Origin: Bacteroidota bacterium
GTDB taxonomy: Bacteria > Bacteroidota > Bacteroidia > B-17B0 > Aurantibacillaceae
Assembly: GCA_021323535.1 (NCBI GenBank)
Contig: JAJONO010000022.1
Location: 1 to 64,000 of the forward strand
Direction of reading: 5' to 3'
DNA: 64,000 bases
Position numbers and translations under genes: made by a program. Within the stretch, counting starts at the first letter, position 1; every line of letters begins with the position of its first letter. Below, piece after piece: positions 5,585-64,000 of the stretch. The notes beneath the pieces were generated by a model. The model saw only the letters and a program-made list of their open reading frames with translations, searched no databases and had not been told where the DNA came from.

Positions 5585-6168
5585 TTCAGATATTCCTTTA
5601 CTTTTTCTTCTAAAATCTCCGGGTGTCGGATCTTATTATACAATGCTGGATTCCGCGACATGATTACTATTTCCAGGCACTCTTTATCAGACAATTCTTC
5701 TACTGTTTTGTTATAATAAATCTTTGATGCTTCATCAAGTCCTATCGCCATGTTTGTATAATCCATCATATTAAGATGCGCATATATACATTGTTTATTG
5801 GAGAGTCTGTTGTCAATCTGATTAATGACTGAAATTGCCTGAAGCCCGCGAAGAATTGAATTTTTCTCCATAATATGAATGTGCGCTGCCAGCTCTTTTT
5901 GCGGATAATGTTTTTCGCAAGTAAAATAATACCATATTGGATCGGGCCAGGCATTGACTTCAAGCGAACCAGGATAAACTTTTTCATAAGCCGAGATTAA
6001 ATTAGAGGGAATGCTGTCTTCATCTGTTTTATTGCAATTAACAAGATGACTAATGTATACCTGAATGTCATCATCCTTAGAGCACAAATAGATAAAAATG
6101 TCGAAAGCAATGTAGGATAAAATGAAAATAAGGATAAAGATCCGGATTATTTTTTTTACTGTTTTCAC
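5581..6168 (-). CDS. Membrane-anchored protein resembling the C-terminal part of GT51 transglycosylases
   Basis: 195 residues with one N-terminal membrane segment (about residues 7-28). Residues about 125-190 (AIGLDEASKIYYNKTVEELS, then DKECLEIVIMSRNPALYNKI and RHPE) look like the region of monofunctional peptidoglycan transglycosylases that reads roughly G-I-x-A-A-x-x-Y-F-G-K followed by L-P-x-P-x-x-Y-x-P. The catalytic glutamate motif (ED near the start of the GT51 domain) and the GGSTITQQ motif are not visible, so I infer a degenerate, probably non-catalytic relative. Its stop overlaps the start of the VOC gene. Confidence 0.5.
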   Translation of the reverse strand: MKTVKKIIRIFILIFILSYIAFDIFIYLCSKDDDIQVYISHLVNCNKTDEDSIPSNLISAYEKVYPGSLEVNAWPDPIWYYFTCEKHYPQKELAAHIHIMEKNSILRGLQAISVINQIDNRLSNKQCIYAHLNMMDYTNMAIGLDEASKIYYNKTVEELSDKECLEIVIMSRNPALYNKIRHPEILEEKVKEYLK

Positions 6169-6248
6169 ACTTAAAAGTATGTTTATTTAACCACATCGTA
6201 AGATGATTAGAGTTTTTTAACGGTAAACCAGTAAAGAAAAGGAACAGG

Positions 6249-62660: not shown

Positions 62661-62717
62661 ATCCTGCTGCGCCGTCGGCAAGCCTTTGGCGGCCGATGGA
62701 GCCAACGCGAAGGAACT
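62661..62717. repeat. GC-rich REP-like segment downstream of the protease gene
   Basis: TGCTGCGCCGTCGGCAAGCC followed by TTTGGCGGCCGATGG is far more GC-rich than its surroundings and can form a stem around GGC and GCC blocks. It resembles dispersed palindromic repeats, but I see no second copy in this window. Confidence 0.3.
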
Positions 62718-62737
62718 TCACAAAATGTAATTAATTG

Positions 62738-62772
62738 AAAAAAAATCAGTCTGTTTAAGATTGATTTTTTTT
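62738..62772 (+). terminator. Rho-independent terminator after the M43 protease gene
   Basis: AATCAGTCT (62744-62752) pairs with AGATTGATT (62758-62766) with one G-T pair and a GTTTA loop, flanked by an A run and a long T run. Confidence 0.8.
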
Positions 62773-62854
62773 ATTTCACTCTTTCAGAAAAACGATTCAC
62801 TCACTTTTTTTTATTTTTCACTCGTTTGCATAAAACTATTTGTGGAAATATATT

Positions 62855-62862
62855 TATATTTG
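62855..62862 (+). promoter_or_regulatory. -7 promoter box (TATATTTG) ahead of the leader ORF and tRNA array
   Basis: TATATTTG is an exact TAnnTTTG match. Transcription would start near 62868, just before the leader ORF. TTTG elements at 62825 and 62839 are present but at non-ideal spacing (26 and 12 bases). Confidence 0.6.
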
Positions 62863-62876
62863 CATCATAATATTAA

Positions 62877-62996
62877 ATGAATAAAAAATTAAATATGCAA
62901 AGTAAGTGTAACATAGCGGGGATCGCAGGCGTGGAGCGCAATACAGGCAGTATCAGAGACTGGCTGATGAGGCTTTCTGTTTTTAATATTAGTTGA
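62877..62996 (+). CDS. 39-codon leader ORF
   Basis: ATG at 62877 and TGA at 62994-62996 encode MNKKLNMQSKCNIAGIAGVE followed by RNTGSIRDWLMRLSVFNIS. It starts about 9 bases from the predicted transcript start. Its last third covers the sequence GAGGCTTTCT (62969-62978), the left arm of a possible antiterminator, so it fits a leader-peptide attenuator. The peptide is not rich in a single amino acid; it has one Trp, three Arg, three Leu... and five Asn. Whether it is translated is inference. Confidence 0.45.
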   Translation: MNKKLNMQSKCNIAGIAGVERNTGSIRDWLMRLSVFNIS

Positions 62997-63061
62997 ATAA
63001 AAAGATTTAATTAGTAAATATAAAAAGGAGAAAGCCTCGACAAACCGTCGGGGCTTTTTTT
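62969..63061 (+). promoter_or_regulatory. Attenuator-like antiterminator/terminator switch
   Basis: Terminator: AAAGCCTCGAC (63031-63041), loop AAACC, GTCGGGGCTTT (63047-63057), followed by more T. Antiterminator: GAGGCTTTCT (62969-62978) is perfectly complementary to AGAAAGCCTC (63029-63038), which overlaps the left arm of the terminator, so the two structures exclude each other. A ribosome finishing the leader ORF would cover the left antiterminator arm and favour termination. The next features downstream are the hairpins and tRNA-like genes, with no protein gene before the window end. Confidence 0.65.
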
Positions 63062-63159
63062 ATTGCAGGTATCAGATGCAATAAGTACCCAAAGTAAAGT
63101 AGACAAAAGCTACTTCTGAAAAAAATAAATTTTCAGTTGCTTGGAATAGTCTTGCCTGT

Positions 63160-63195
63160 CCTGAAGCGAAGTTGCAAAGTAACTTCTACTTCAGG
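63160..63195. repeat. Bulged hairpin H1
   Basis: Outer stem CCTGAAG/CTTCAGG (63160-63166 with 63189-63195), bulged T at 63187, inner stem GAAGTT/AACTTC and a 7-base loop. The pair next to the bulge is C opposite A here, a mismatch compared with other copies. Confidence 0.75.
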
Positions 63196-63215
63196 GCCGA
63201 TAAAAAAATTAATCC

Positions 63216-63247
63216 TGAAGTGTAATTCTGTAAGAATTTCTGCTTCA
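63216..63247. repeat. Bulged hairpin H2
   Basis: TGAAG/CTTCA, T-G wobble next to the bulged T (63241), G-C, one T-T mismatch, then AATTCT/AGAATT closing a 3-base loop GTA. Confidence 0.8.
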
Positions 63248-63261
63248 CGGAAAAATATTAA

Positions 63262-63301
63262 TCATGAAGCGAAATTTTTGAAAAAAATTTCTGCTTTATG
63301 A
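63262..63301. repeat. Bulged hairpin H3, ends at the class II tRNA
   Basis: TCATGAAGC/GCTTTATGA with one G-T pair, bulged T at 63292, inner stem GAAATTTTT/AAAAATTTC. The last paired base is 63301, and the tRNA-like gene starts at 63302. Confidence 0.8.
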
Positions 63302-63384
63302 GCTGGTTTCGCATAGCGGTCGATTGCGCCTGCCTTGTAAGCAGGAGACGAAAGTCCACGGGAGTTCAAATCTCTCAACCAGCT
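63302..63384 (+). tRNA. tRNA-like gene, anticodon TGT (Thr), class II with long variable arm
   Basis: Acceptor GCTGGTT/AACCAGC is perfect. T8 and C9 precede a short D-stem (GCA/TGC) with a GG-containing loop. Anticodon stem CCTGC/GCAGG holds loop CTTGTAA, anticodon TGT at 63336-63338. T-arm GGGAG-TTCAAAT-CTCTC, discriminator T at 63384. The region between anticodon and T-stems is 14 bases and forms GAC-GAAA-GTC, a class II variable arm. Normal bacterial tRNA-Thr is class I; only Ser, Leu, Tyr and Sec tRNAs normally carry such an arm. CCA is not encoded. Confidence 0.75.
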
Positions 63385-63385
63385 C

Positions 63386-63462
63386 TGCGTAGTGAAGGAG
63401 TGGTCGTCCTTACTGGCCTCATAAGCCAGGTATCATGAGTTCGAATCTCATCTACGCTACCA
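63386..63462 (+). tRNA. tRNA-Met(CAT), initiator-like, with encoded CCA
   Basis: Acceptor GCGTAG/CTACGC pairs after a 1:72 T-T mismatch; D-stem AAGG/CCTT gives A11:T24; anticodon stem CTGGC/GCCAG with loop CTCATAA, anticodon CAT at 63420-63422; T-arm ATGAG-TTCGAAT-CTCAT; discriminator A followed by CCA. The unpaired 1:72 and purine 11:pyrimidine 24 are bacterial initiator features, but the anticodon stem has G29, G30, C31 rather than three G:C pairs, so initiator identity is not certain. It could also be tRNA-Ile2 (CAT read after lysidine). Confidence 0.85.
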
Positions 63463-63497
63463 TGAAGCAGAAATCAACATTTCGCTTCATGGTAGCG
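63455..63497. repeat. Bulged hairpin H4 (inverted orientation), runs into the tRNA-Met 3' end
   Basis: CGCTACCATGAAGC pairs with GCTTCATGGTAGCG (14 bp), bulged A at 63469, then GAAAT/ATTTC and loop CAAC. The left arm includes the last acceptor bases plus ACCA of the CAT tRNA (63455-63462). The bulge is on the left arm, so this copy is the reverse complement of the others. Confidence 0.85.
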
Positions 63498-63513
63498 AGG
63501 ACCAAACGTTGTT

Positions 63514-63553
63514 CGTGGTGAAGCGAACGACGAAGGAGTTCTGCTTCACCACG
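63514..63553. repeat. Bulged hairpin H5, overlaps the start of the GAT tRNA-like gene
   Basis: CGTGGTGAAGC/GCTTCACCACG (11 bp), bulged T at 63542, inner GAAC/GTTC and a 9-base loop. Its last two bases are the first two bases of the tRNA-like gene at 63552. Confidence 0.8.
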
Positions 63554-63628
63554 GTAAGTAACCCCTCTGCCTGATACGCAGAATAAAGGTAACGGTTGAA
63601 AATACATGTTCGAATCATGTCTTACCGA
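63552..63628 (+). tRNA. tRNA-like gene, anticodon GAT (Ile), no D-arm
   Basis: Acceptor CGGTAAG/CTTACCG is perfect (63552-63558 with 63621-63627), discriminator A. Anticodon stem TCTGC/GCAGA with loop CTGATAC, anticodon GAT at 63573-63575. T-arm ACATG-TTCGAAT-CATGT is perfect. Only 7 bases (TAACCCC) separate the acceptor and anticodon stems, so no D-arm can form, while 21 bases lie between anticodon and T-stems. AACC (63560-63563) could pair with GGTT (63594-63597), making a different core helix. D-armless tRNAs are known from animal mitochondria; this may be functional, or a decayed gene. Confidence 0.6.
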
Positions 63629-63631
63629 CTT

Positions 63632-63671
63632 GCAGTGAAGTGAAATTGCGTAGCGATTTCTACTTGACTGC
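63632..63671. repeat. Bulged hairpin H6
   Basis: GCAGTGAAGT pairs with ACTTGACTGC (one G-G mismatch), bulged T at 63661, inner GAAAT/ATTTC and an inner TGC/GCG mini-stem. Begins 3 bases after the GAT tRNA-like gene. The pair next to the bulge is T-A here, C-G in H3-H5. Confidence 0.8.
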
Positions 63672-63682
63672 TCAAAAAAAAC

Positions 63683-63715
63683 TGAAGTGTAATCCTGAAA
63701 AGGATTTCTACTTCA
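63683..63715. repeat. Bulged hairpin H7
   Basis: TGAAGT/ACTTCA, bulged T at 63709, G-C, T-T mismatch, AATCCT/AGGATT, loop GAAA. Closest to H2 in form, with a different inner stem that keeps pairing. Confidence 0.8.
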
Positions 63716-63761
63716 TGGAAAAAGAAAGCACAACTCCAAACTGATTGCTTCATCATTCAAA

Positions 63762-63795
63762 GGTGAAACGAAAGGCAAAGGAGTTCTGCTTTACC
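63762..63795. repeat. Bulged hairpin H8, one base before the GTT tRNA-like gene
   Basis: GGTGAAAC pairs with GCTTTACC (one G-T pair, one A-C mismatch), bulged T at 63787, then GAA/TTC and a loop. Shares GGAGTTCTGCTT with H5. The weakest copy. Confidence 0.65.
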
Positions 63796-63796
63796 G

Positions 63797-63869
63797 GGAC
63801 GAGAAGCTCATGTGGATGAGCGACTGATTGTTAATCAGAGGGTAGCAGGTTCGAATCCTGCATTGTCCG
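63797..63869 (+). tRNA. tRNA-Asn-like gene, anticodon GTT
   Basis: Acceptor GGACGAG/ATTGTCC pairs except G7:A66 and one G-U; D-stem GCTC/GAGC with a GG loop; anticodon arm ACTGA-TTGTTAA-TCAGA with an A27:A43 mismatch, anticodon GTT at 63830-63832; variable GGGTA; T-arm GCAGG-TTCGAAT-CCTGC; discriminator G. The anticodon region is normal for bacterial tRNA-Asn. Odd points are A at position 8 (almost always T) and the two stem mismatches. CCA is not encoded. Confidence 0.8.
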
Positions 63870-64000
63870 CCTAAGTTCGCCATAGCAAACTCCGACGGAT
63901 GCAATCCGCAAGAAGAGTGTAAGCGACCTTCGAAAGCGAATTACGTTCAGAATATTTTTTAAATGTTCTGTGAAATAGAAACTGGGAAAAGAAATTTCCC
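63870..64000. other. Structured tail of the tRNA array, cut by window end
   Basis: No gene is visible. AAGTTCGC (63873-63880) can pair with GCGACCTT (63923-63930) around a CGGAT-GCA-ATCCG hairpin; CAGAATATTT/AAATGTTCTG (63948-63970) forms a 10-bp hairpin with one G-T pair; GGGAAA/TTTCCC closes at base 64000. These do not follow the H1-H8 design, and the array may continue beyond the window. Confidence 0.5.

Follow-up and report, generated by a model that had tools for sequence, protein, structure and literature searches.

Hairpins among the genes of a Bacteroidota tRNA array, probably decayed copies of a palindromic element linked to a GIY-YIG endonuclease

Why the spacers of a compact run of tRNA genes should hold one kind of bulged hairpin, repeated many times, is the question raised by the end of the DNA stretch presented above, which comprises bases 1-64000 of a single contig (C66) in a source genome of 5.3 Mb and is referred to here as the window. 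Eight hairpins and four tRNA-like genes follow one another in the order H1-H2-H3, tRNA-Thr, tRNA-Met, H4-H5, an Ile-like gene, H6-H7-H8 and tRNA-Asn, and both this order and the coordinates had been given correctly by a sequence-only reading of the window, as confirmed with ARAGORN, Rfam and a covariance model of the hairpins (R1). That reading had offered two explanations, namely a punctuation system for the processing of a polycistronic tRNA transcript or a family of palindromes that target tRNA ends, and comparison with related genomes favours the second. The hairpins are probably reduced copies, most of them decayed, of a palindromic element of the Bacteroidia that is small and mobile, settles right behind tRNA 3' ends and would be spread by a GIY-YIG endonuclease.

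A hairpin family at tRNA 3' ends and its nuclease gene

Comparison established a sequence family that abuts tRNA genes in a single orientation, is polymorphic at orthologous tRNA loci and is linked to a nuclease gene. The R1 model was built from 22 hairpins, 15 of them from the two halves of the array (the second lies on contig C138) and 7 from elsewhere in the source genome. Across these hairpins the covariation score was 0.331, compared with 0.036-0.073 for slid structures, and none of 500 shuffles scored as high; two of the five covariation measures were less clear, the count of pairs changed on both sides being reached in 63 of 500 shuffles and the count of pair types in 33 of 500. The stem common to the hairpins is not chance, and its bulge is a single unpaired T after six pairs. 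No Rfam family matched the hairpins above its gathering score. Within the window, H1 to H7 fitted R1 at 33.9-50.4 bits, scores that are in-sample because these hairpins went into building the model, while H8 is decayed at 22.3 bits, so that the shared design proposed for all eight holds clearly for seven; no further place in the 64 kb scored above 13.0 bits. The loop and inner stem differ among the hairpins and their spacing is irregular, in agreement with the earlier judgement that an array with neither a constant repeat nor uniform spacers is not a CRISPR.

A covariance search, one of the checks proposed with the sequence-only reading, found hairpins in 18 of 40 same-genus genomes (E<=0.001) and, under stricter filters, in 7 of 295 genomes of the class; the genus counts are lower bounds because 150 candidates were scored per genome. 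The source genome contains 31 hairpins at E<1e-3, of which 13 are in the C66 array, 5 are in or just past the C138 array and 13 are elsewhere. The last 13, together with 76 places in 17 other genomes, make up the 89 loci outside the source arrays, two of which (L083 and L115) lie within the arrays of relatives. In 17 of these 89 loci, one of them (L115) in a relative's array, a gap of 0-5 nt separates a tRNA 3' end from the hairpin that follows it, and the orientation of this hairpin is identical in 17 of 17; an ARAGORN tRNA is present anywhere in the stretch in 29 of 89. Abutment at 4 of the 13 source loci has a chance probability of 2e-13, or 2e-9 if only a tenth of the genome is allowed, and abutment across the genus one of about 5e-43, or 4e-26 under the same restriction, values that assume 60 tRNAs per 2.5 Mb and independence and are indicative only, since copies within one genome are not independent. 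Outside the genus, all 7 hairpin places (in 5 genomes) lay within 90 nt of a tRNA 3' end, with three abutting and the nuclease gene present in 3 of 7.

Orthologous loci were compared by means of coaX, the gene adjoining the source tRNA-Phe, which had a match in 35 of 40 genomes and was used to fetch 30 loci. tRNA-Phe was present in 27 of these and was followed by the hairpin pair in 3 (G000, G002 and G034), with no R1 hairpin in the other 24, where an ordinary stem and T run were seen by eye. The pair at this tRNA is accompanied by the nuclease gene in G000 and, in G034, by a match spanning residues 1-57 of 106 only; at the G002 tRNA-Phe copy the nuclease gene was not found. Near-identical composites nevertheless stand behind tRNA-Met, tRNA-Phe and tRNA-Arg in G002, the nuclease genes at Met and Arg being 99% identical.

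The open reading frame behind the hairpin pair encodes a GIY-YIG protein (PF01541, E 6.6e-16 and 1.5e-15), in which Y8, Y19, R29 and E65 are invariant among 17 proteins and, by analogy with I-TevI, are presumably catalytic. One full copy of the element is present in the source genome, at tRNA-Phe on contig C71; it is about half a kilobase long, and its single open reading frame is the GIY-YIG gene, for a protein of 103 aa. Relatives of the nuclease occurred in 21 of the 40 genus genomes, and 30 of 37 listed places were fetched. Hairpins accompanied all 6 genus loci of the close subfamily, defined by at least 65% identity to a query (L114) itself taken from a hairpin locus, and none of the 24 fetched loci of the distant subfamily at E<=0.05, with an ARAGORN tRNA at 22 of the 30 (5 of 6 close, 17 of 24 distant). 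Searching 395 class genomes by protein only returned 14 close loci, distributed over 13 genomes of 10 genera, two of these loci being also in the genus set; hairpins were found upstream in all 14 (13 at E<=3.1e-6 and L210 at 0.025) and an intact tRNA in 6. Searches for the nuclease among phages (E<=1e-8) and plasmids (E<=1e-12) found nothing at these limits, and viral contigs gave two distant matches (35% identity). The earlier proposal that palindromes target tRNA ends is supported by the one-orientation abutment in 17 of 89 loci, by presence and absence at an orthologous tRNA and by linkage to the GIY-YIG gene.

A separate arrangement was seen around distant GIY-YIG genes (L136, L138, L140, L143, L148, L153 (source contig C36)), each of which has a broken 5' copy of a tRNA on one side and, downstream, an intact copy of the same tRNA on the other. 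A GC-rich palindrome interrupts the broken copy, in five cases near the D loop (after nt 14-18) and in L148 after nt 35. Targeting of tRNA genes by nuclease-linked palindromes may therefore be general in Bacteroidota.

A different mover would be a Y1 (RAYT) transposase, the hairpins then being REP-like (repetitive extragenic palindromic) palindromes with an incidental link to the GIY-YIG gene. Imperfect, bulged palindromes that are scattered and often form inverted pairs do resemble REP/BIME sequences, and there are three Y1_Tnp matches in the source genome, two of them with an internal stop. However, within about 1.5 kb of these three places there is no strong R1 hairpin (best 15.0 bits; source genome only), and the GIY-YIG gene co-occurs with the hairpins in 14 of the 14 loci sought by protein, which makes movement by a transposase unlikely.

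Anatomy and proposed spread of the element

The usual layout is a tRNA, a long hairpin with a terminator-like stem and a short hairpin, to which some copies add the nuclease gene of about 105 aa. The long hairpin, in which TRAAGCAG...CGCTTYA encloses the terminator-like stem, is followed by a few bases that complement the end of the tRNA, after which the short hairpin often comes in the opposite R1 orientation. Complementarity was assessed in 24 hand-chosen rows, from which two near-duplicates were dropped before the test. In the remaining 22 abutting cases, the first ten bases behind the long hairpin make up 220 positions, of which 118 agreed with the complement of the tRNA end; shuffling gave 88.4 on average, and 0 of 5000 shuffles reached as many. 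The best matches were at Leu, Phe (C71) and array Met (8 nt) and at array Val (7 nt). The idea of a specific pairing that extends past the last four tRNA bases was considered and set aside, the signal being weaker than a few striking cases had suggested.

The terminator-like stem distinguishes solitary copies from those in the array. Inner GC pairs number 4-7 in the long hairpins at 16 solitary tRNAs, where the T runs are 3-6 long, and 0-2 in the array hairpins compared (four of the five in the long orientation), where the T runs are 2-5 long (p=0.0016 for the difference in GC pairs); none of these four shows the combined GC stem and T run of an intrinsic terminator. The sequence-only reading had held that the hairpins are not a row of terminators. 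A scan of 62700-64000 gave no terminator for the + strand; for the - strand it reported three, all of them weak and two in hairpin regions, against 0.9 expected. The related hairpins at solitary tRNAs do carry a terminator-like stem.

Remnants of a tRNA 5' of the element exceeded shuffled controls at L205, L211, L212, L080, L074 and L209 (13 nt left before the contig end). The remaining tRNA 3' piece at L080, L205 and L212 starts near the T arm, which would fit a cut near that arm.

In the proposed mechanism, the nuclease would cleave tRNA genes, most likely close to the T arm, and repair templated by an occupied locus would bring in the hairpins and sometimes the nuclease gene too. The long hairpin would replace the terminator of the tRNA, which would thereby remain usable. 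Template switching during repair is one possibility for how the palindrome could gain tRNA-complementary bases. Copies would also have entered the spacers of a compact tRNA array, where the GC-rich terminator stem would have been lost, in line with the needs of a polycistronic transcript. Whether these features define a new class of mobile element is evenly balanced; such a class would consist of a GIY-YIG homing endonuclease and a bulged two-hairpin palindrome that home to the 3' ends of many tRNA genes, bring a replacement tRNA terminator, are able to extend the stem with the complement of the tRNA 3' end and lose the terminator stem in polycistronic arrays.

Several observations weigh against the mobile-element explanation. 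Homing itself, that is, the cutting of tRNA genes by the nuclease and the copying of the hairpins by repair, is inferred, and the strong conservation of the stem could reflect a host role. The close nuclease was found in only 13 of 395 class genomes, and only 6 of the 89 hairpin loci contain its gene (tblastn E<=1e-3). In 60 of the 89 loci there is no ARAGORN tRNA in the fetched stretch, which was mostly about 3 kb; the sequence-only reading had named copies scattered without tRNA association, or a match to an unrelated known family, as grounds for rejecting it, and the copies are indeed scattered, yet no Rfam family reached its gathering score and tRNA ends are hugely over-represented. Putative tRNA remnants did not exceed shuffles in L130, L207, L215, L216, L127 and L076, and past the last four bases of the tRNA there is only a modest excess of complementary positions (47 of 132, against a mean of 37.3 in shuffles, 192 of 5000 of which scored as high). 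The 16 solitary hairpins used in the terminator comparison include three near-identical ones. Finally, in G029, G039 and others the hairpin is nested inside the GC-rich flanks of another dispersed repeat, so that R1 may join two related palindrome families. The related hairpins observed at L084-L099 (G029) and at L024 and L103-L111 (G039) lie within a dispersed GC-flanked repeat (..GGGCGYGMCCCC, hairpin, GGGG..) present in many copies.

The tRNA array and its counterparts

The array in the window opens on the + strand with three short-type hairpins 5' of the first tRNA, H1 (63162-63193, 42.1 bits), H2 (63216-63247, 44.7 bits) and H3 (63265-63298, 50.4 bits), the last ending 3 nt 5' of tRNA-Thr (TGT; 63302-63385, +; ARAGORN, Rfam 55.8 bits). 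This gene has a long variable arm, which is unusual for tRNA-Thr, and is followed by tRNA-Met (CAT; 63386-63462, +; ARAGORN, Rfam 52.8 bits). H4 (63463-63489, - strand, 35.7 bits) begins with a gap of 0 nt to the tRNA-Met 3' end; it has the long-type orientation and is shrunken, with 0 inner GC pairs and no GC terminator stem, and an inverted 8-nt copy of the tRNA-Met 3' end at 63490-63497 (+) extends its stem into the tRNA. Together with the short-type H5 (63519-63548, +, 34.2 bits), which ends 4 nt 5' of the Ile-like gene, it forms one long-short composite. The Ile-like gene (GAT; 63553-63630, +) was missed by ARAGORN and Rfam and folds into an acceptor stem, a long GAT anticodon arm and a T arm, with no D arm; three of the four tRNA-like genes reported earlier (Thr, Met and Asn) are therefore recognised by both programs, and the fourth stands as a tRNA-like fold only. 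Two more short-type hairpins, H6 (63636-63667, +, 33.9 bits) and H7 (63683-63715, +, 46.2 bits), precede the decayed short-type H8 (63764-63793, +, 22.3 bits, E 1.6e-4), which ends 3 nt 5' of tRNA-Asn (GTT; 63797-63871, +; ARAGORN, Rfam 46.5 bits). The spacer at 63872-64000 (+) closes the window, and the scan of the extended locus that had been proposed with the sequence showed the array going on for 2.6 kb to C66:66622, with 11 further ARAGORN tRNAs and 6 further hairpins, giving a total on C66 of 14 ARAGORN tRNAs and the Ile-like gene.

The second half of the array, on C138, contains ARAGORN tRNAs for Gln, two Leu, Ser, Ile, Phe, Arg, Pro and His along with further Rfam matches, one of which is Tyr by our reading, and the halves combined carry 19 isotypes named by ARAGORN. 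Other long palindromes (AGAGTGAGTGT..) occupy spacers of the C138 array at L010:4872-4929 and 6161-6218, and the array may thus have been invaded by more than one family of repeats.

Spacing is tight in the source arrays, where hairpins end 3, 4, 3, 5 and 3 nt 5' of the Thr, Ile, Asn, Cys and Arg genes and begin 0, 0 and 2 nt 3' of the Met, Val and Phe genes. Under processing punctuation, the hairpins would act in the RNA, directing nucleases to the sites at which a polycistronic tRNA transcript is cut. Placement within 0-5 nt of tRNA 5' and 3' ends at several places, conserved stems with compensating changes and the lack of a terminator GC stem in the tested array copies all speak for it. The counterparts of the array in related genomes speak against it. 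Those of the C138 half were located via the RNA ligase gene next to it (L031, L032, L033, L035 and L037) and had R1 hairpins in 0 of 5 arrays, the weak matches in L032 falling outside its array. Those of the window half comprised L037 and arrays located via R2, a model of a conserved non-coding array RNA (source copy, G014 and L037), which matched in 6 of 40 same-genus genomes and, in the five others fetched, lay between or beside array tRNAs. Four of these arrays (L225-L228, in G003, G010, G021 and G034) had 9 to 19 ARAGORN tRNAs in the fetched stretches and no R1 match above 12.4 bits, so that hairpins were present in 0 of the 5 window-half counterparts not first found by hairpin (L037 and L225-L228). 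The G014 array (L229/L083), first met via a hairpin match, had one strong (28.7 bits) and one weak (18.4 bits) hairpin, and the G002 array (L115), also met via hairpins, had three.

In the arrays of relatives, many neighbouring tRNAs are often separated by only a few bases. Among the 18 strong array hairpins of the source genome, 5 are oriented opposite to the rest; several array tRNAs have no hairpin close by, and the family is widespread outside arrays. Since both sets of five counterparts lack them, the hairpins are not a conserved punctuation device, and with both orientations in use and many copies far from tRNAs, the earlier proposal of a processing code is very improbable. Insertion right behind a tRNA, with the old spacer kept 5' of the next, would explain both spacing regularities and the punctuated look, and array hairpins of such an origin may have taken on a later RNA-level role. 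The remaining alternative, that the hairpins are a host feature, namely bidirectional tRNA-gene terminators with an outer palindrome spread by gene conversion, would fit the long hairpins with a GC stem and T run right behind tRNAs and their abutment in one orientation, but is very doubtful given that 24 of 27 tRNA-Phe genes beside coaX have an ordinary stem and T run (by eye) in place of such a hairpin, that near-identical composites stand at three tRNAs of one genome, that short hairpins and array copies have no GC stem and that linkage to a nuclease gene is tight.

The RNA ligase (PF09414) adjoins the C138 half, and not the C66 half in the window, together with a WYL regulator, an S24-like protein and an RNase_T exonuclease. 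It was present in 4 of the 40 same-genus genomes including the source, the other three each having a tRNA array alongside. At the equivalent locus, L032 and L033 had a Ro60/TROVE protein and YrlA-like matches, the latter below gathering score, L032 additionally an RtcB and an RF-1-domain protein and L033 a Band 7 protein; neither Ro60 nor Y RNA was identified by Pfam and Rfam in the two array stretches of the source genome. Both array halves lie inside 7 kb at L037. Because of these RNA-repair neighbours, the array may be a reserve tRNA set tied to RNA repair, of which the C66 part looks like one half.

Further features were observed in and around the arrays. Just beyond the window, at C66:64041-64168 (L009:4041-4168), a conserved Y RNA-like RNA lies within the array, with closing stem ATGAAAGACAG/CTGTCTTTCAT; its core resembles those in L083 and L037, and the source copy has no Rfam match. 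At L010:9034-9270 and L083:2456-2660, tRNA-like ends (D arm, T arm and acceptor) flank a long insert that is alike in the two genomes, the former having only a weak Rfam tmRNA match. A tmRNA call in L010 was discarded as it overlaps two ordinary tRNAs. A 747-aa protein (L010:9744-11987) adjoins the C138 array and has a weak RING-like match below the Pfam cut-off; its identification as a Ro60 homologue was unsupported by Pfam and by direct comparison with the Ro60 of L032, and we suspect a TerD-like region in it. A Flavo-1 RNA (RF01705, 60.6 bits, above gathering score) is located within the tRNA array of a relative (L228:3436-3522, G021).

Comparison with known systems

If the mobile-element explanation is correct, it connects three subjects that are usually treated separately, namely REP-like palindromes, homing endonucleases of the free-standing kind and the role of tRNA genes as safe sites of insertion, and provides a testable, transposase-free origin for bacterial palindromic repeats. 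It would also mean that supplying its own terminator allows an element to occupy the position behind an essential gene, and that a regular hairpin layout among tRNAs can come from invasion and need not mean a processing code. Among the best literature matches, in a search with most subscription journals outside its scope, no account was recognised as this element and none combined 'repetitive extragenic palindromic' with 'GIY-YIG'.

REP/BIME sequences and their RAYT transposases are similar in that short bulged palindromes occur dispersed in many copies and in opposite-orientation pairs. The element described here differs in its GIY-YIG partner, in its strong preference for tRNA 3' ends and in that none of the three Y1_Tnp places in the source genome has a strong copy next to it. 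Integrative elements with attachment sites at tRNA 3' ends share this target and likewise leave the tRNA usable; in contrast, the copy on C71 is about half a kilobase long with one open reading frame, for the GIY-YIG protein, is palindromic and is inserted behind the tRNA end. Dense tRNA gene sets are also found in the tRNA arrays of phages (PMC7824862) and in RNA-repair loci, matches to RNA ligase, RtcB, Ro60/TROVE and Y RNA-like RNA being found here near the arrays of relatives, whereas the present array has at least 19 isotypes split across two contigs and is invaded by hairpins.

The GIY-YIG homing endonuclease SegB of T-even phages is free-standing, its gene lies beside tRNA genes (PMC2988022, PMC13096335), and it is described as cutting inside phage tRNA genes at the motif RAWTSGAAC (PMC13096335). 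By our reading, this motif is the reverse complement of the T-loop GTTCGAATC. SegB differs in being phage-borne, whereas the nuclease genes described here are on bacterial contigs, and a paired palindrome behind each tRNA is unmentioned in the available portions of the SegB accounts. With a GIY-YIG gene alongside tRNA genes in both cases, SegB is the nearest experimental parallel to the element proposed here.

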